Source of the DNA: Chitinispirillaceae bacterium
Lineage (GTDB): Bacteria > Fibrobacterota > Chitinivibrionia > Chitinivibrionales > Chitinispirillaceae
Direction of reading: 5' to 3'
Length of the DNA: 61,143 nucleotides
Assembly (NCBI GenBank): GCA_016929595.1
Contig: JAFGIN010000031.1
Coordinates: 1 to 61,143, forward strand
The stretch's first letter is position 1; the number at the start of each line of letters is the position of its first letter. Position numbers and translations under genes: made by a program. Positions 798 through 59,508 of the stretch are shown here, piece by piece. Below the pieces are notes generated by a model. It saw only the letters and a program-made list of their open reading frames with translations, did not search any database and was not told where the DNA came from.

Positions 798-882
798 AGA
801 GCAGATTGAATAGTATCTTATGAGTCAGTACAATAGAGTTCACAGTGTCGTTTTGAGCTTCAAAGGCAAGGCTTACGGGCAT

Positions 883-1032
883 ATGTCATTAATCATATAT
901 GAATATATAGATTACAAAAAATTCCTGAGCGACTGGCGAAAAGCAGAAAAGCAACGGAATCCCGGACTAAAGAAAAAGTTTATGATTACGGGGGTAATAG
1001 TCGAAAGAGGTAATCAAGTAGTAAGTCAATGA
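883..1032 (+). pseudogene. Truncated TIGR02147-family gene, N-terminal remnant
   Basis: From the ATG at 883 the frame reads MSLIIYEYIDYKKFLSDW, followed by a basic stretch. This matches the start of TIGR02147 proteins; the intact copy at 29789-30619 begins with the same pattern (NIFAYIDYRKFLHDYY). After about 33 residues the similarity stops and the frame ends at 1032, so roughly 240 residues are missing. No continuation was found in the other frames up to 1338. The remnant sits just upstream of a lipoprotein gene, the same arrangement as the intact TIGR02147/lipoprotein pair at 27-30 kb. A short functional peptide cannot be ruled out, but decay is more likely. Confidence 0.6.
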
Positions 1033-25264: not shown

Positions 25265-27124
25265 ATGGAACTTCAAGAGCTCTATTTTGGCTCAGATTTG
25301 AAACCGGCAGATGTAATGACCTTTGAATGCGGTCCTGTTTCGTTCTTATATCAAAATGGCATGATCCGTTCCGTGATGTACGGGAAGACGGAACTGATAC
25401 GTAGAATATACATGGCTCTCCGTGATTCAGTATGGAATACTATCCCATACACCGTTTCTAAACCTGAAATTAGACAAAATGAAAATACTTTCTCACTCTC
25501 TTTTAATGCTAACCATGTGCATGATAGTATAAAGTTTCAATGGAAAGGTTTAATTGAATGCAGTAATGATGGTATTGTTCGTTTTCAGATGCGGGGAAAA
25601 TCACTTTCAACTTTTTATCGCAACCGCATCGGACTTTGCGTACTCTTACCCCTTTCTTTTTCCGGAAAGGATGTGTTAATAATTGACGCGAAAAATACCG
25701 CCACTAATGGTGTTTTTCCCGTACAGATTGCTCCCCATCAGCCCTTTACCAGCATTTCAAAAGTTAAAGGCAGTGCTCCTCATGGTACTTCATACGAACT
25801 TTCCTTTGATGGTGATATTTTTGAAATGGAGGACCAGCGGAACTGGACTGATGCATCTTATAAAATTTACTCAACTCCACTATCTCAGCCAATACCTGTA
25901 ATAGTTAATGAAAATGATGAAATATCTCAATCTGTTACACTATTGATAAAGTCCGGCAATCAGATTACATGCGAAAAAGAGAAAAAAGAACGTCTTTCAG
26001 TACCGCAGGACAGGACTCGTTTTTTCAGAATTCCACAACTGGGGCTTCATGATTCTACTACTGATCCTGTCAGCCCGCCGGCAATTAATTATCTTAACGG
26101 ATTAAAGATTAATCACTGCCGTTATGACCTGATTATCAATGAAGCAACTTTAATTTCTGATCTGCAGAATATTGCCCAGCGATGCGGTATGTACAAGGTC
26201 CCCATTGAACTTGCTCTTTACTGTAAATCACTCAGCTTACAAATAGTTGATCAGCTTATTGATGCACTGATTATCGCGGGTATTAGAATCTGTCGATTCT
26301 GCATTTATGATGATAATAAAGTAACCTCGCAGGAAACATTAGAAGTGATTGCCCCCCCCTTAAAATTACATTTCCCTGATTCCCTGATTGCATCAGGGAC
26401 TGATTTCTACTTTGTCGAAATAAATCGTAAACATCCTCCTCTTACTATGGTTGAGCAGATTTGCTACTCAGCCAATCCTCAGGTACACACCTTTGATACC
26501 ATTTCAGTAATGGAAAACCTTGAAGGAATCGAAGAAACACTGAAACATGTCAAGACATTTGCAGGTGAAATTCCTGCGATTATTTCACCGTTGACACTCC
26601 GACCACGAAAAAATCCCGGCAATCCCCGAAAAGATGGTGGCGTTGATGTTCGTCAACAAGGATTGTTCTGCTCATCCTGGACCGCCGGAGTGATACAACG
26701 TGCTGCATCAGGAGGAGCATCCAGTATTACCCTCTACGATATTTTTGGTGACGGGGGGGTAATCCGGATGGATGGGTCAGCGGTATTTCCTGCTTATATT
26801 GTCCTTCTCTGGCTCTCAGAGTTATCCGGACAACCAGGTATCTTATGTCAAAGTACGTCGACTATTATTCAGGGGATGATTATCCATTCACCAGATGGAG
26901 ATAAAATGCTCATAGCGAACCACTCCGAACAGAGTCACACTGTGATTATTGAAGGATTACCTGATGAATTTTCATCCAAAGTGCTGGATCAGAATTCATT
27001 TGCAGCTGCAGTTTCCAATCCAATCGCATGGAACAGCATGAGAGGGAAGTATCACCTCTGTGAGGAGCATCGGTGGGAGACGCAGTTACTTCCTTATGCT
27101 GTGGCGTTGCTTTCGTTATCCTGA
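25265..27124 (+). CDS. D-apionate lactonase-like protein (ApnL family)
   Basis: 619 residues, no signal peptide, so cytoplasmic. The N-terminal half matches what I know of D-apionate lactonases: RDSVWNTIPY near 53-62, FQWKGLIE, STFYRNRIGLCVLLP (about 115-129), IAPHQPF and the hallmark MEDQRNWTDASYKIYSTPL at about 187-205. A TIM-barrel-like middle and a small C-terminal beta domain follow. ApnL enzymes open D-apionolactone in apiose breakdown. No other apiose gene (kinase, dehydrogenase, RuBisCO-like) is nearby, so the true substrate may be another lactone. The gene is monocistronic. Recognition is from memory of the family. Confidence 0.6.
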   Translation: MELQELYFGSDLKPADVMTFECGPVSFLYQNGMIRSVMYGKTELIRRIYMALRDSVWNTIPYTVSKPEIRQNENTFSLSFNANHVHDSIKFQWKGLIECSNDGIVRFQMRGKSLSTFYRNRIGLCVLLPLSFSGKDVLIIDAKNTATNGVFPVQIAPHQPFTSISKVKGSAPHGTSYELSFDGDIFEMEDQRNWTDASYKIYSTPLSQPIPVIVNENDEISQSVTLLIKSGNQITCEKEKKERLSVPQDRTRFFRIPQLGLHDSTTDPVSPPAINYLNGLKINHCRYDLIINEATLISDLQNIAQRCGMYKVPIELALYCKSLSLQIVDQLIDALIIAGIRICRFCIYDDNKVTSQETLEVIAPPLKLHFPDSLIASGTDFYFVEINRKHPPLTMVEQICYSANPQVHTFDTISVMENLEGIEETLKHVKTFAGEIPAIISPLTLRPRKNPGNPRKDGGVDVRQQGLFCSSWTAGVIQRAASGGASSITLYDIFGDGGVIRMDGSAVFPAYIVLLWLSELSGQPGILCQSTSTIIQGMIIHSPDGDKMLIANHSEQSHTVIIEGLPDEFSSKVLDQNSFAAAVSNPIAWNSMRGKYHLCEEHRWETQLLPYAVALLSLS

Positions 27125-27349: not shown

Positions 27350-29779
27350 TTAAAATGTTCTTAAATCAGCAGAGCACCAGACCTCTAACGTTTTTGATGT
27401 AATCCCTATATTGCCACCGATTAACCAGATTTTGTCATTATAAACAACAGCATGGCAATTATCGGGGTATTTACCTGATGAAGAAACCTTGAGCCATTTT
27501 ACACCATCTTTTGAGTACCATACGTCTCCCCCGCAGGAAACAGGATTTCCAGATTCTTGACTAATGCCACCGACAAGGAAGATTTTATCTTCATAAGTAA
27601 TGCATTTATGTCCATATCGAGGTGAGAATTCTGCAGCGGGGTTAACCTGTGTCCAGGTGATACCATCAGAAGAAGACCAGATATCATTCAGGTTGTTTTT
27701 TCGTGAATCAACACCGCCGATAACCCACATTTTATTCTGAAATTCGACAGCCGCGAATTGATCTCGTGGTAAAAATGGAGCTGAATCGGTTGCTGTATTC
27801 AAGGTTATACCATCAGATGAATAGAGCACCGCATCAGCTGTGGAATCTTCACTGTTTTGTTTCATACCACCTAAAATCCATATGCGATCGTTGAAGGTCA
27901 TACTATAACGCATGTTATAGGCATTAGATAAAAGATGTGAATCCACAGGTGCTTGTGTCCATTCGATTCCATTTGAAGAATACCAGAAATCATTAACCCG
28001 TTTCAAAGCATAATTAACTTTCCCACCGATAATCCATATTTTGTTATCATATACAATGGTTTTATGGTTGAATATATCGTTATAACTACTGAAGGTACTT
28101 AGCGAAGTAGATTTTACCCACTCTGTTCCATCTGTCGAGTAGCGAATTTCACCAGAAGGAGAAGAGGTTCCTTTGTCAACTATTCCACCGATAATCCACA
28201 TTTTATTATCAAATACAGCACACGAATGATCGTATGTAAGGGGTGCAGAACTGGTTAGACGACGGAACATGTATACGGATATTTTTTTTGTAGCTGTAAC
28301 GCTGTTACCATCATCATCGGTAACCCGAACAGATATTGGTAGCTCAGGATCAGCCTGGTTCGGAGCTATAATAAAGGTATCTGATTGTAATGAAGAAGTA
28401 ACGTAGGAGTCGGTTCCGGTTTTCCATTCGATCAGGTTGATATTTCCATAAGTATCTCTGGTTTCAATATTAAGCTTGATTGTATCACCAAATGCATAAA
28501 GAGAATCGTCAGCCTGCAATATTACAACTGGCAGGTCAGTAACAACCACTAATTCGGTTGAAGAAGACCAGGTTTTACCAGCTCCATCAGTTACTCTGCA
28601 GGTAATGCTCTGCCTTCCCGGCGCACTACTGTATATGTAAAGAGAATCGGTAATGTTGTCTATCGGTTCATTTAAGTCTGTTGTTTTCACAAGTTGAGAA
28701 TTGTTGCCAAACCATTGGATAGACTTGAGTTTTCTAATCGGGTTTGAGGCCTGAACAAAACAAAGTATGGAATCATTGATAGATGCGCTGTCAGAAAAAA
28801 CCCTTTTCTTCAGATGATAATGTTTAAATGAAAAAAATGGTTGAATTTTTAACGGAGGGACTGCAGTGATACCAGTGTATTTGTAAGTCTGACCAATAAT
28901 GGTTCCATTACTTCGAACTGCGACACGATATTTAAAACGATAACTGTTAGTATCTGTGAAAGAGAAGGTACCTGATGTAATACCTTTTTTAAATATTGTG
29001 TCGGCAAAAAATGTGTCATTCCTCGCTGCAATAGGTTTACTGGAAAATTCAGTGGAATCATAGAAATCACGGTAGATAACATAATCCTGTAAATTTCTGT
29101 AATCTGCAGTGTCCCATGATAAATTTACAATACCATTCAATGTATCATAATCAATTTTAAGACCTGTCACGACAGGAATTCCAGTATAGGGAAGAACCAG
29201 TGTGTCAAAAAGAGTGTCTCTGGTTGAAGACTCAATGGTGATGTCTGCAAACAGTGGAGAATAATCAGCAAGTATTGAGACTAGTTTAAGCCGATATTTA
29301 CCAGTAGTCATCGGTTTCAGAGTAAACATACCATCAGAATCGACATTGCTATAAAGATCAGTTCCCAAAATTCTTACTATTACCGTTTGAGGATCGTGAT
29401 TTGGTTGAAGCTTTATAAAGCCTGCAATTGCTATAGGTTTTCCAAGAGTATCGGATTTTACTGTAGATGAATTAGTGGTGACAGTAACAGAATCCTGGAA
29501 AGCTATTTGGGAATCTTTTCTTGATAAAATGGTGTAGATTCCATTAGGTACTTTATTGAATTTATAGGTTCCCTTTGCATCGGTTATTGTTTCATATCGG
29601 GATATAGTATCATTGATTCCGAAAAATCTTACAACAGCTCCAGTCGCAGGTGTCAGGTCATTATTATAAACCACAGCAGATTTGCTTGTTTCTGTATCGC
29701 TGATCGTTCCTGAAATATTTTCATTTGAACAGGATAGAAGAAGCAAATATATCAATATTAGCATAGTCATTGGCTCCAT
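27350..29779 (-). CDS. Lipoprotein with carboxypeptidase-regulatory, FN3/Ig and six kelch repeats
   Basis: 809 residues. The short signal peptide ends in LLLSC, so Cys17 would be lipidated. Then two carboxypeptidase-regulatory-like beta domains (about 20-115 and 115-195), an FN3-like domain after the LPYTGIP linker (about 200-305), two Ig-like domains (about 310-510), and a C-terminal beta-propeller of six kelch-like blades (about 520-805) marked by repeats such as NKMWIIGG, NKIWIIGG, DRIWILGG, DKIFLVGG. The whole reads as a long surface stalk carrying a binding head; no enzyme motif is seen. TAGGAGA precedes the ATG. It is 9 bases downstream of the TIGR02147 gene and shares its N-terminal layout with the lipoprotein at 31163. 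Confidence 0.8.
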   Translation of the reverse strand: MEPMTMLILIYLLLLSCSNENISGTISDTETSKSAVVYNNDLTPATGAVVRFFGINDTISRYETITDAKGTYKFNKVPNGIYTILSRKDSQIAFQDSVTVTTNSSTVKSDTLGKPIAIAGFIKLQPNHDPQTVIVRILGTDLYSNVDSDGMFTLKPMTTGKYRLKLVSILADYSPLFADITIESSTRDTLFDTLVLPYTGIPVVTGLKIDYDTLNGIVNLSWDTADYRNLQDYVIYRDFYDSTEFSSKPIAARNDTFFADTIFKKGITSGTFSFTDTNSYRFKYRVAVRSNGTIIGQTYKYTGITAVPPLKIQPFFSFKHYHLKKRVFSDSASINDSILCFVQASNPIRKLKSIQWFGNNSQLVKTTDLNEPIDNITDSLYIYSSAPGRQSITCRVTDGAGKTWSSSTELVVVTDLPVVILQADDSLYAFGDTIKLNIETRDTYGNINLIEWKTGTDSYVTSSLQSDTFIIAPNQADPELPISVRVTDDDGNSVTATKKISVYMFRRLTSSAPLTYDHSCAVFDNKMWIIGGIVDKGTSSPSGEIRYSTDGTEWVKSTSLSTFSSYNDIFNHKTIVYDNKIWIIGGKVNYALKRVNDFWYSSNGIEWTQAPVDSHLLSNAYNMRYSMTFNDRIWILGGMKQNSEDSTADAVLYSSDGITLNTATDSAPFLPRDQFAAVEFQNKMWVIGGVDSRKNNLNDIWSSSDGITWTQVNPAAEFSPRYGHKCITYEDKIFLVGGISQESGNPVSCGGDVWYSKDGVKWLKVSSSGKYPDNCHAVVYNDKIWLIGGNIGITSKTLEVWCSADLRTF

Positions 29780-29788
29780 AATATTCTC

Positions 29789-30619
29789 CTACTTGGACAT
29801 GGGAAACAGATTAAGGTTGATATGATAAACCCGTGATGGCTCTATTTGATCTTTCTGGACAATCGCTCTTACTTCGGACTTATATTGCTTAGTACGTTCG
29901 GTGATTTGCCTGAAAGCTTCGTCAGATAAGCTTACTGTCATGGTAATATTGCGATAATCCAGATCCGATCCATTTATAATCACATTTTTTGCATGCTCAA
30001 GACAGGTGATCTGGAATTGCTCAATAAGTTCATTATGACCAACAGTTCCAGATGAGATCACTTTATCGGCTGGTTTCCAGTATCCCTGGTCATTTAGTAC
30101 TATTAACCCAAGTTGTTTAAGAAGAGTAATTGAATCGCTGGCTTGTTTTTTTGAAATTTTTGGAAAAATTTTGTTTACTATCAATTTCAAATCATCTTTA
30201 AAATCAATGATATCCAATAAAGCTCTAACAGCACTATGATACCATTCCTTATAGTAGGCATAAGCTTTTTTATCAATCAGACAATGTGGTGTATTATTTA
30301 ACCGTATGATCTGGTCAAAAAAGAACTCTTTTTCATGAATACTTGAAGACTGATTGTAGTTGACCAATGCCCGAAAATAATGAGATTCTTCTGTGTTGAG
30401 TGAAAGAAGGTCAATAAAACGGTCGATAAAGGTGGAAGTAACATCCATTCTACCTTTAATAACATTGCTGAAATAACTCTTTGAATTTTCCTGTCCCAGT
30501 TTAAAACAAATATAAGTATGTGTAAATCCGGCATCAATGGATTTTCGAAAATTGTAATAGTCATGTAAAAATTTTCGATAATCGATGTAAGCAAAAATGT
30601 TTATGTTATTCTCTTTCAT
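29789..30619 (-). CDS. TIGR02147-family protein
   Basis: 276 residues of the TIGR02147 family, a paralogous family expanded in Fibrobacter. Family marks: NIFAYIDYRKFLHDYY at the start, a helix-turn-helix-like segment near 30-75 (FSNVIKGRMDVTSTFIDR), FRALVNYNQS, a winged-helix-like middle (SITLLKQLGLIVLNDQGYWKP), and a C-terminal MTVSLSDEAFRQITER followed by VYHINLNLFPMSK. The layout suggests a regulator with DNA-binding and sensory parts, but the function is not established. It precedes a lipoprotein gene by 9 bases and diverges from another lipoprotein, so control of surface proteins is a reasonable inference. Confidence 0.82.
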   Translation of the reverse strand: MKENNINIFAYIDYRKFLHDYYNFRKSIDAGFTHTYICFKLGQENSKSYFSNVIKGRMDVTSTFIDRFIDLLSLNTEESHYFRALVNYNQSSSIHEKEFFFDQIIRLNNTPHCLIDKKAYAYYKEWYHSAVRALLDIIDFKDDLKLIVNKIFPKISKKQASDSITLLKQLGLIVLNDQGYWKPADKVISSGTVGHNELIEQFQITCLEHAKNVIINGSDLDYRNITMTVSLSDEAFRQITERTKQYKSEVRAIVQKDQIEPSRVYHINLNLFPMSK

Positions 30620-31162
30620 ACCTTAATAATAAATGATATGGTCGCGAGATTCAACTAGTGTTGGTGCTAAATTTTATAGAACGTTTTTCCAGTATTTCAA
30701 ACATGCACCGAAAGTACTATTCTGATATTAATTATCTGTAATGTAATACTATTCTTGTGTTTTCCATCAGAAAACGGATATTGCGATATTTATGGTAAAA
30801 CGGTTGAAATTAAGAGCTATATTATGATCATATACAAAGACCTCAAGCGCATAATGTTAATAAGCCAGAAATAGATGAATGTTTTATCTTATTTTTTGAA
30901 TTCATGTAAAAGTGATCACAAAAGAGAGATATTTAAGAATATCGTTCCATTTTTAAGAGGATATAGTCTTTTTTGAAACTTAAAACATTGTTGCAATTAG
31001 ATTAATCCTTATTGATCTTAATAATATACAAATAGAAGTATTGTATTTGTAATAGTTACATAGATATAGTAACATTCTTTAAAAACAAATATTTTACTCA
31101 CTAAAATTGATATGTTTAAATTTTGAATCCAAAAATACAGGAATATGAAGTTAGGAATTTAT
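30620..31162. promoter_or_regulatory. Long AT-rich divergent region with an inverted repeat
   Basis: About 540 bases, no gene. TACAAATA (31027-31034) and TATTTGTA (31044-31051) form a perfect 8-base inverted repeat with a 9-base spacer, and GTTAC / GTAAC follows nearby (31055-31073) with a similar 9-base spacing. Either could be an operator for the divergent lipoprotein and TIGR02147 genes. Confidence 0.4.
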
Positions 31163-32989
31163 ATGAAAAAATCAGCGTTAATTGTGTACGCGTTAAATGT
31201 TCTTTTTTTTGTCAGCTGTTCCAATATCATAGATTCGGAAACCGCTCAAGCAATTAATAAATCCAGTATCTCCGGAATCCTTACTTTACAGGATGGTGCG
31301 ACTCGTGCCGACAGGGCTATGGTAATACTCAGACCAGCTGCTATGCTTGGAATGGTAGGCGATATCAGTAGAGATACTACAATCGATACTACTTTTACTA
31401 ACAATTTTGGACATTATGAATTTCAAAATGTCCAAAATGATCAGATATACTCCATTGAAGCGCGTAAAGATAACAATGCAGTTTATATCAAGTCAGTTCC
31501 TAATATGACATCCGAAACGGTTGATCTTGGAACAGACACATTGAAACCAACCGGGGCGATTACAGGAAGTATATATCTTTCGGGAGGTGGAAATTACCAG
31601 AATGTATATATACTTGCATTTGGCATTGATCGTTTTGTTCATGTCAATGCAGATGGAACATTCTACTTGAAGGGACTGGGAGAAGGAAACTATGCATTGC
31701 GTATAATTTCAGCGATTCCGGATTACGGTATTGTCGACCCAGCTGCTTTAACAGTTGTATCGTCCTGCACAACAGATATCGGACGTATTGTTTTACCATT
31801 TACGGGAATCCCAAGGCCATCCAATGTTAACGTTTCATACGATGAACATTTAATGGTAGCTACGGTTTCATGGGCTTCATCTACTGCAAGTTCACTGATT
31901 GGTTATAATGTATACCTGCGGACAGGTAACAGCAATTTTGAAAAAATTTCTGATAGCGTATCTGAAAGTGTTACTGATTCCATTGTTACGGACACTTTTT
32001 ACAGAGTAGATCTCCTTGAACACCAGAATCAGACCATCCAGTTTGCAGTTACTGCTGTTGACTCTTCATTTGTTGAATCGGGCTTTGGTACAAGCGAGAC
32101 AAAAATACTCAGTTCATCCTGGTGTGGGAAAACTATCAATTTCGAGAATGGGTATCCATTAAATAATGATGGTGTATATCTTACATTCAATAAAATATTT
32201 ATTTTACATAAAACCGGCACTCAAATAAAAAACATTATCGGATATGATTCTGATGGCAAATCGACAGGTGAATGGAACCCCTACACTTCTAACAATATAG
32301 ATACTTCAGGAAAGTTCTTCGTTGATATGATTTTTGATAATGACGGTAATTACTATATCTCAGAAAATGAACGCATTTGTAAGTTTGACTCATCTTTCAA
32401 TTTTATCGACTCTATAAGTGGATCCAATGCTGTCAGTTATCTCCCGACCTTCGCTAATGTTGACAATGGAATAATTTGTGTGGCAAATTCAGCAGTCATG
32501 GTAGCAGAAGGCAGTTTGACCAGATTTTACGATACAAAACTGAAGCTGCTTGGGACATGGAAAACATGGGCAGGGAGAGTTGAAGATTTCAGAGTTTTAA
32601 ATGATACAATCGCTCTTGTTGTGGATATAGCAGGCATGATGCAACGGGAAAAGTGGATTGTCTATCTTAATAAACAGTTCAACGAGTTGAGTAGAATTGA
32701 AATGAAATTATCTGAATTGGCAGGGGGAAAAGTTCCAGGAAAATTTGACAAAATCTATATAGCTCAAATGGAGCTGCTCTCTGATGGAGGATTCATAATC
32801 CATGCTGGTGGTAAACGTTTAAATGAATCTTTACAAGCAACTATGTGGCTCTGGGAATTTGATTCATCCAGACAGTTGCATTCAAGAGTGAATTTACTGT
32901 GTTCGCGTTTTTTACAAGATAAAAATGGTCATATTTTTACAGATAATTGGGGTAATAAGCTTCCGGAAATAGTGTATAATTGTAGATAA
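31163..32989 (+). CDS. Lipoprotein with carboxypeptidase-regulatory and FN3-like domains
   Basis: 608 residues from the ATG at 31163, which has AGGAA 7 bases upstream; the frame extends to 31145 but with no ribosome site. The signal peptide ends FFVSC, giving a lipidated Cys. Two carboxypeptidase-regulatory-like domains (about 35-125, 125-210) and an FN3-like domain after LPFTGIP (about 215-320) match the layout of the 809-residue lipoprotein across the divergent gap. The C-terminal part (about 325-600) looks like an NHL- or propeller-type beta domain (FDNDGNYYISENERICKFD) in place of kelch blades. Probably a cell-surface protein; function unknown. Confidence 0.75.
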   Translation: MKKSALIVYALNVLFFVSCSNIIDSETAQAINKSSISGILTLQDGATRADRAMVILRPAAMLGMVGDISRDTTIDTTFTNNFGHYEFQNVQNDQIYSIEARKDNNAVYIKSVPNMTSETVDLGTDTLKPTGAITGSIYLSGGGNYQNVYILAFGIDRFVHVNADGTFYLKGLGEGNYALRIISAIPDYGIVDPAALTVVSSCTTDIGRIVLPFTGIPRPSNVNVSYDEHLMVATVSWASSTASSLIGYNVYLRTGNSNFEKISDSVSESVTDSIVTDTFYRVDLLEHQNQTIQFAVTAVDSSFVESGFGTSETKILSSSWCGKTINFENGYPLNNDGVYLTFNKIFILHKTGTQIKNIIGYDSDGKSTGEWNPYTSNNIDTSGKFFVDMIFDNDGNYYISENERICKFDSSFNFIDSISGSNAVSYLPTFANVDNGIICVANSAVMVAEGSLTRFYDTKLKLLGTWKTWAGRVEDFRVLNDTIALVVDIAGMMQREKWIVYLNKQFNELSRIEMKLSELAGGKVPGKFDKIYIAQMELLSDGGFIIHAGGKRLNESLQATMWLWEFDSSRQLHSRVNLLCSRFLQDKNGHIFTDNWGNKLPEIVYNCR

Positions 32990-33094: not shown

Positions 33095-33766
33095 ATGGAC
33101 TTTAGAATGCAAAAAAATTCATCATCTATTTTCCCCCGAATTGTTTTATTAATCTTATACTGCTCTGTATTTAGTTTTAGCCAATTCGAATGGAAACAAT
33201 CGATCACAAAGGATTCTCTTCCTTATCAAACCTCATTAAATGGTATAGTATTTGGAAATGGTCAATTTTTTATTGGAGGTTGGAATTTCAATGGAATCGT
33301 ATCAGGGAGTTCTGGGCATGCAACATATGAACCTGATCCTCTTGTGTTGACTTCTTCAAATGTACAGATATGGACAAAAACGGTTGTCGACTCGTCCATT
33401 CAATTTACCTCGATAGCTTATGGAAATACTACTTTTACTGTTCTTGCCAGCAATAATTCTGTATGGTATTTAAAAGAGAACAAGTCTGATACCTCAGATA
33501 AACAGATTCTGTTAAGAAATTATAAATTCCAAGTAAAGATAGTTACCAGCAAAACAAACATTTCTATTCATGTGCTTGACAATACATCGTTACATTCTCC
33601 AGCTAAAATAGCCTTATTTACCTGCGCAGGCAGGAGATTGTGTGAATATTTTTCTACTCCGATTAACAATACATTTACATTTCCTGTAAATGGGATTCCT
33701 GCAGGTAAATATTATGTATCGTTTGACTATGGAAATGGTGAAAAGAACACACACTTTCTCTTGTGA
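33095..33766 (+). CDS. Secreted protein with truncated repeat and sorting-like C-terminus
   Basis: 223 residues with an N-terminal signal segment (about 15-30). Residues 45-130 contain one or two copies of a repeat (GIVFGNGQFFIGGW, SIAYGNTTFTVLAS) like those that form long propellers in secreted bacterial proteins, here far fewer than usual, suggesting internal loss. The C-terminal 75 residues (KIALFTCAGRRLCEYF, GIPAGKYYVSFDYGNG, HFLL) resemble the C-terminal beta sandwich used as an outer-membrane sorting domain in Fibrobacterota and Bacteroidota. Start choice between 33095 and the ATG at 33107 is unclear. Sits in the accessory surface-protein region. Confidence 0.55.
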   Translation: MDFRMQKNSSSIFPRIVLLILYCSVFSFSQFEWKQSITKDSLPYQTSLNGIVFGNGQFFIGGWNFNGIVSGSSGHATYEPDPLVLTSSNVQIWTKTVVDSSIQFTSIAYGNTTFTVLASNNSVWYLKENKSDTSDKQILLRNYKFQVKIVTSKTNISIHVLDNTSLHSPAKIALFTCAGRRLCEYFSTPINNTFTFPVNGIPAGKYYVSFDYGNGEKNTHFLL

Positions 33767-58821: not shown

Positions 58822-59508
58822 TCAATCAATAACGGTCACTTGTACCTTCATACTCATTCCCCGCCCCAGTGCCATTCTGGTTCCGTTGCATACTATCACA
58901 ATTCTTCCGCCATGATTTGCAATCATCTCCCCTTCGCATCCTGGAGCAATTCCCAAATCCATCAGGTGACTTCTGAATCCGTCTCCCCGACCTGTTCCAA
59001 TGTCAACAACTTTGAACCGTCCCCCAGTTTCTATCATTGAGAGAGGTATAGTCTGCCTGTTGCTTTTCCCAAAGCATTTTTTGCACAGTCCATGGATCTG
59101 CATCTTGTGGGAAAATGGATGAAACCCGTATTTTCTAGCCTCGTCAAGCTGTGCCGCTTCAATAAGAGGAGACATGAACTCGATGATTGTACCACATTTC
59201 AGACAGTACAGATGATCGTGATGTTCTCCTATATGGAGATGCTCATAACGGGCGACATTATCTGCAAATACTCTTTCGGTTGCGAAACCGTATTCTACCA
59301 GAAGATTCAGAACATCACGGATGACAATGTCACTTGCATGTATTCCCTTGTCTTTGATAAAAAGGCGAATTTCATCGAAGGATACGTGGTGGTCAAGCGA
59401 AAAGAAAAACTCTATTACGCTGCGCATTTTTTCATCTGTGTCAACGCCATTTGCGTTAAGGAACTCAAGACATTCATTTAAAATGCGTTCATGTTTTGAC
59501 TTATTCAT
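58822..59508 (-). CDS. Fur-family regulator fused to a FeoA domain
   Basis: 228 residues. The N-terminal Fur half (about 1-147) has a winged helix and the dimerisation motif HHDHLYCLKCGTIIEF with CLKC and CKKC zinc pairs. The C-terminal 78 residues are a full FeoA domain (QTIPLSMIETG, LMDLGIAPGCEGEMI, GTRMALGRGMSMKVQV). FeoA usually is a small SH3-like protein that works with the FeoB iron transporter; here it is joined to a metalloregulator, which would let iron status or the Feo system speak directly to the DNA-binding part. Neither feoB nor a separate feoA is nearby. GGAG precedes the ATG; no frameshift marks the join. Confidence 0.85.
   Translation of the reverse strand: MNKSKHERILNECLEFLNANGVDTDEKMRSVIEFFFSLDHHVSFDEIRLFIKDKGIHASDIVIRDVLNLLVEYGFATERVFADNVARYEHLHIGEHHDHLYCLKCGTIIEFMSPLIEAAQLDEARKYGFHPFSHKMQIHGLCKKCFGKSNRQTIPLSMIETGGRFKVVDIGTGRGDGFRSHLMDLGIAPGCEGEMIANHGGRIVIVCNGTRMALGRGMSMKVQVTVID

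Follow-up and report, generated by a model that had tools for sequence, protein, structure and literature searches.

Dedicated secretion chaperones in type III secretion also act as regulators, and they offer one of two useful comparisons for the locus described here. The TIGR02147 protein would resemble them in sensing an unexported client and feeding back on that client's expression. It differs in that its clients carry Sec-type signal peptides and in that it itself contains a predicted DNA-binding domain; we know of no sequence relationship between the two. Nor do we know of any description of a regulatory scheme in which every exported protein is sensed individually by way of a tag that follows its signal peptide. 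The second comparison is with the RRNPP/RRNPPA peptide-sensing regulators (Rgg, PlcR, PrgX), a family described in PMC9765709. Like these, TIGR02147 appears to be a cytoplasmic helix-turn-helix (HTH) protein whose gene adjoins that of an exported product and whose paralogs differ in the peptide that each of them recognises. Unlike them, it lacks TPR repeats (there was no match in 51 TIGR02147 paralogs, all 51 of which matched DUF4423), it is found in Gram-negative hosts, and it has no sequence relationship to the family; moreover, whereas they respond to small pheromones, the element that it would read is a tag carried by a large exported protein. Our search of the literature found no paper mentioning TIGR02147 by name and no description of a function or partner for TIGR02147 (Fsuc_second)/DUF4423, a DUF4423 protein being mentioned in a table only.

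The locus lies in the middle of the window, that is, the whole 61,143-nucleotide stretch of DNA that was analysed. Its features are:

29789-30619, minus strand: TIGR02147/DUF4423 protein, 276 aa, with an N-terminal Xre-like HTH, a winged helix and a helical C-terminal part
30350-30580, minus strand: predicted Xre-like HTH, residues 14-90, from a profile match and helices in the AlphaFold model
29798-30277, minus strand: DUF4423 region, residues 115-274, which holds nearly all of the tag-covarying positions
30011-30013, minus strand: codon of Gln203, equivalent to reference position 197 by alignment mapping; as elsewhere in the family, Gln here pairs with Thr at tag position 6
27350-29779, minus strand: tagged partner lipoprotein, 809 aa, with signal peptide, Cys17, tag, stalk and a kelch head with six GG repeats
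29678-29710, minus strand: tag GTISDTETSKS, residues 24-34 of the partner, a diverged form (PWM 3.7; tag-profile E 3.3e-7)
29174-29194, minus strand: LPYTGIP linker, residues 196-202 of the partner; related stalks also have an xTGIP linker
30620-31144, no strand: A+T-rich intergenic region of 525 bp, the site where an autoregulatory operator would be expected
31145-32989, plus strand: divergent stalk lipoprotein, 614 aa, tagless (tag score -1.2) and without a TIGR02147 of its own
31793-31813, plus strand: LPFTGIP linker, residues 217-223 of the divergent lipoprotein

The TIGR02147 protein of the window is a full-length member of its family. It scored 240.8 bits against the NCBIfam TIGR02147 model over residues 6-276 (cut-off, 50) and 85.2 bits against DUF4423 (PF14394; cut-off, 30; E 5.8e-24). 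In a profile search, chains with Xre-type HTHs were the best sequence matches, with residues ~20-72 matching C.BclI and CI at E values of 0.0037-0.3; HTH_3 was matched in 6 of the 51 paralogs, the window protein not being among them. The AlphaFold model of the protein has a pLDDT of 89. When this model was compared with the PDB using Foldseek, no significant structural relative emerged, and the only matches were weak ones to winged helices.

The original prediction held that the TIGR02147 gene sits 9 bases before one lipoprotein gene and diverges from another. The coordinates bear this out: 9 bases separate the TIGR02147 stop from the start of the 27350-29779 gene, and 525 bp lie between the divergent genes. 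The six-bladed kelch head that it had assigned to one lipoprotein agrees with the six kelch GG repeats of the 27350-29779 protein. It had also seen a common N-terminal layout; both linkers were indeed found and the two stalks are 33% identical, with the carboxypeptidase-regulatory-like matches in both proteins falling mostly below the Pfam cut-offs. The propeller-like domain proposed as the head of the divergent lipoprotein found no confirmation: this head had no Pfam match, and the single-sequence AlphaFold model of the protein had a pLDDT of just 32. A single-protein scan with the window protein uncovered two orthologous pairs (L205, 69%; L206, 57%) plus one Oligoflexia relative. Both pairs share the 9-bp gap of the window pair and have lipoproteins resembling its own, that of L206 with a clear kelch head, and the tag reads GTISETDTGKS and GTASETDTAMI in orthologs of the 27350-29779 lipoprotein. 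A counterpart of the divergent gene is missing beside both pairs. The divergent lipoprotein is likewise absent among the tag-profile matches listed, and its stalk relatives elsewhere are tagged proteins that adjoin TIGR02147. The window pair is one TIGR02147/tagged-protein module with a kelch head; the divergent lipoprotein is an additional version of the exported protein that has no tag. Of the two lipoproteins, TIGR02147 here has just one, that of 27350-29779, as its partner.

TIGR02147 is present in 157 of 168 genomes of the phylum, in up to 85 copies per genome, and 54 matches were found in the source genome (6.6 Mb, draft). It was missing from every sampled genome of two genera (G009 and G023-G029, genus g10; G018 and G035, genus g17). 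Predicted lipoproteins accounted for 47 of the 52 genes downstream of TIGR02147 in the source genome, compared with 39 of 214 in a background of close same-strand neighbours (Fisher p 1e-22); here, a simple home-made rule, lenient for signal peptides, was used to predict both signal peptides and lipoboxes, and gene calls were open reading frames of draft genomes. Lipoprotein genes are therefore enriched beside TIGR02147, as had been predicted. The neighbour pattern was the same, with a few exceptions, at about 100 loci drawn from further genomes of the phylum. The most common spacing between TIGR02147 and its partner is a 4-base overlap (-4 bp). Because the DNA upstream of most copies is free over a long distance (>150 bp in 39 of 51 full-length copies of the source genome), TIGR02147 is usually the first gene of its unit. 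A shared operator upstream of TIGR02147 operons was sought and rejected: no shared palindrome was found, and a weak T-rich motif alone exceeded the shuffles. The heads of the partners vary between copies and include LamG/DUF2341, LRR, kelch and FGE.

A few TIGR02147 copies, e.g. C76, C149, L161 and L169, have no tagged neighbour. At L080 and L037 (G000:C76 and G000:C149), TIGR02147 is followed by another, untagged signal-peptide protein of ~960 aa, and the N termini of the two are alike. In the downstream lipoproteins of L031-L080, the position preceding the lipid Cys is often filled by Q, R, K, N, Y or H instead of G/A/S, which suggests that the source genome has a relaxed lipobox.

The partners share an 11-residue tag, G-G-x-[ST]-[ED]-T-x-N-[GPA], located a few residues behind the signal peptide or lipid Cys. 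Its composition is mostly G, G/T, G/T/V/S, S/T, E/D, T/V, G/T, N and then G/P/A/T. A tag score of at least 5 was reached by 42 of 52 partners but by only 2 of 331 other signal-peptide genes of the source genome. A motif trained on other genomes only recovered 32 of 50 source-genome partners at a score of 5 and 39 at a score of 3. When the source genome was searched with the tag profile, the best 40 of 45 matches all lay behind a TIGR02147 gene. In six genomes without TIGR02147, no convincing tagged protein occurred among the matches listed; these were weak, and the strongest readable one mainly covers the signal peptide. In the window, the exported protein that adjoins TIGR02147 carries the tag and the divergent one does not. 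Codon usage in the tag equals that of the genome; therefore, selection acts on the protein, and a nucleic-acid role of the tag was ruled out on the same ground.

The original prediction had thought the module perhaps peculiar to Fibrobacterota, which proved too narrow. Sampling outside the phylum covered one class, that of the Oligoflexia relative, and TIGR02147 was found in 43 of its 58 genomes. A GN-type variant of the tag is present in 32 of 44 adjoining signal-peptide genes of this group versus 5 of 123 others (p 3e-19), and H occupies position 197 nearly throughout its TIGR02147 proteins. Because the tagged neighbours in this group often have no lipid Cys, the link is with the tag and not with lipidation, stalk or head. 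Judged by sequence, it is the tag that defines a TIGR02147 partner, rather than lipidation, stalk, head or LPxTGIP linker. The idea of a regulator/surface-protein module with exchangeable heads thus survives in part: there is an amplified two-gene module whose heads differ, but it is defined by the tag, not by the stalk and linker.

Six loci contain two stalk lipoproteins and one TIGR02147 (the window, L334, L335, L336, L338 and L348). In all six, exactly one lipoprotein is tagged, in either gene order; the tag on the first copy of L336 was seen only upon scanning all candidate Cys residues (L315). By comparison, L333 has two TIGR02147 genes and two tagged stalk lipoproteins. A single ancient subfamily of tagless stalk copies was also considered, but placing them in one clade was rejected (AU p 0.00035), and the tag state requires about four changes on the tree. 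Two very large stalk lipoproteins (L344, 191-3754, minus strand; L339, 3258-6500, plus strand) have a weakened tag, AGNSIKKGNP, with no TIGR02147 in the stretch examined.

Positions of the tag covary with particular positions of TIGR02147, nearly all of them in DUF4423 (92 non-redundant pairs). With tags permuted within genomes (124 pairs), the maximal z for the tag was 11.3, compared with 4.1 for 24 post-tag columns; earlier control columns yielded maxima of 4.7 (stalk) and 3.3 (signal peptide). Q197 goes with Thr6 of the tag (49/52 vs. 20/72 otherwise) and W188 with Asn-Gly in the tag (20/22 vs. 15/102 otherwise), and Pro at tag position 9 occurs only with H, Y or T at position 197. The window pair obeys the first of these rules, having Gln203 together with a Thr at position 6 of its tag. 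Couplings link tag positions 2-4 to TIGR02147 positions 117, 127-130, 177-181 and 245, and tag positions 5-9 to 188, 197, 217-218, 234 and 241. The coupled positions thus run in colinear order, as those of an extended peptide in a groove would. In 51 held-out pairs (<60% identity), a 12-coupling model trained on the 92 pairs gave the true tag a mean relative rank of 0.119 (chance, 0.5; p 5e-10), whereas ten random-column models gave 0.28-0.50. Taken alone, the rules for H197 and K245 did not reach significance among these held-out pairs (p 0.09 and 0.66, respectively). Recognition of the tag by TIGR02147 is strongly indicated by this covariation, which may also arise by indirect coupling and does not in itself prove contact.

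The pairing, the tag, the ratio of one tag per TIGR02147 and the covariation of tag and DUF4423 residues are all strongly indicated by the sequence comparisons; from them we infer physical binding of the tag, DNA binding and the sign of regulation. We consider it probable that TIGR02147 is a cytoplasmic partner that reads the tag of one neighbouring exported protein and exerts feedback on the operon through its HTH. It would recognise the protein encoded by its own neighbour via the short tag just behind the signal peptide, for which a groove is most likely provided by the DUF4423 part. Because no signal peptide was seen on TIGR02147 and the tagged protein is exported, contact would be made before export, with the partner still in the cytoplasm. 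The N-terminal HTH would then most likely convert the presence of unexported cognate preprotein into transcriptional feedback on its own operon; this outcome appears likeliest because the N-terminal part is Xre-HTH-like and the middle winged-helix-like. With only slightly more reserve, we propose that the DUF4423 family consists of proteins that read peptide tags by a residue-level code, dozens of orthogonal pairs per cell controlling the synthesis or export of each protein singly. This proposal provides a testable function for the large and unstudied TIGR02147/DUF4423 family. If confirmed, the natural code of many receptor-tag pairs would be a source of orthogonal protein-peptide pairs.

The main rival to transcriptional feedback is a private chaperone. 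TIGR02147 would be a dedicated export or translation factor that holds or pilots the tagged preprotein of one client, its HTH serving for dimerisation or for contact with some nucleic acid that is not an operator. Consistent with this idea are the ratio of one factor to one client, the frequent translational coupling (the -4 overlap), the placement of the tag where the preprotein meets the export machinery and the failure to find a shared operator. However, an Xre-like HTH with a winged helix is typical of transcription factors, and the clients include ordinary proteins with Sec-type signal peptides, which rarely need private chaperones; we thus regard it as unlikely, if worth serious attention.

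Less likely still, the tag could be an envelope sorting or anchoring signal only, with TIGR02147 a local regulator that travels along and the covariation a product of common inheritance. The tag does remain on the mature protein near the lipid Cys, and related pairs are co-inherited, with a weak mirror-tree signal. Yet the stalk, post-tag and signal-peptide columns are co-inherited as well and show no comparable covariation. Neither other lipoproteins nor genomes that lack TIGR02147 have the tag; it has also been lost several times in extra stalk copies and is kept on non-lipidated proteins in the Oligoflexia-class group.

It is very improbable that, once the protein has been exported, its tag region is set free and re-imported as a peptide signal for TIGR02147, after the fashion of Gram-positive pheromone regulators. 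The gene for an HTH receptor does adjoin that for an exported protein, and there is cognate specificity among paralogs, but the tag belongs to the N-terminal end of proteins that are large and often lipidated, neither a small propeptide gene nor a cleavage motif was seen, and TIGR02147 has no TPR domain. Least credible is the originally predicted Fibrobacterota-specific adhesion module with a common stalk and exchangeable heads, for although heads do differ between copies, stalk and linker are not general among the partners, the tag is shared without the stalk, and in the Oligoflexia-class group the module occurs with a variant tag borne by unrelated proteins.

Several other genes of the window deserve mention. 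At 820-1032 (plus strand), ~300 bp ahead of a lipoprotein gene without a tag (1339-2220), lies a 70-aa open reading frame with a second half that matches the N terminus of TIGR02147 (IYEYIDYKKFLSDWR), an apparent remnant. Beside the divergent lipoprotein, a small secreted protein is encoded at 33095-33766 (plus strand), with a C terminus weakly like a T9SS sorting domain (TIGR04183, 18.6 bits; cut-off, 23). The product of 25265-27124 (plus strand) is a distant relative of D-apionate lactonase (234 bits, under the equivalog cut-off of 750). At 58822-59508 (minus strand), a Fur-family domain is fused to a FeoA domain in a single protein.
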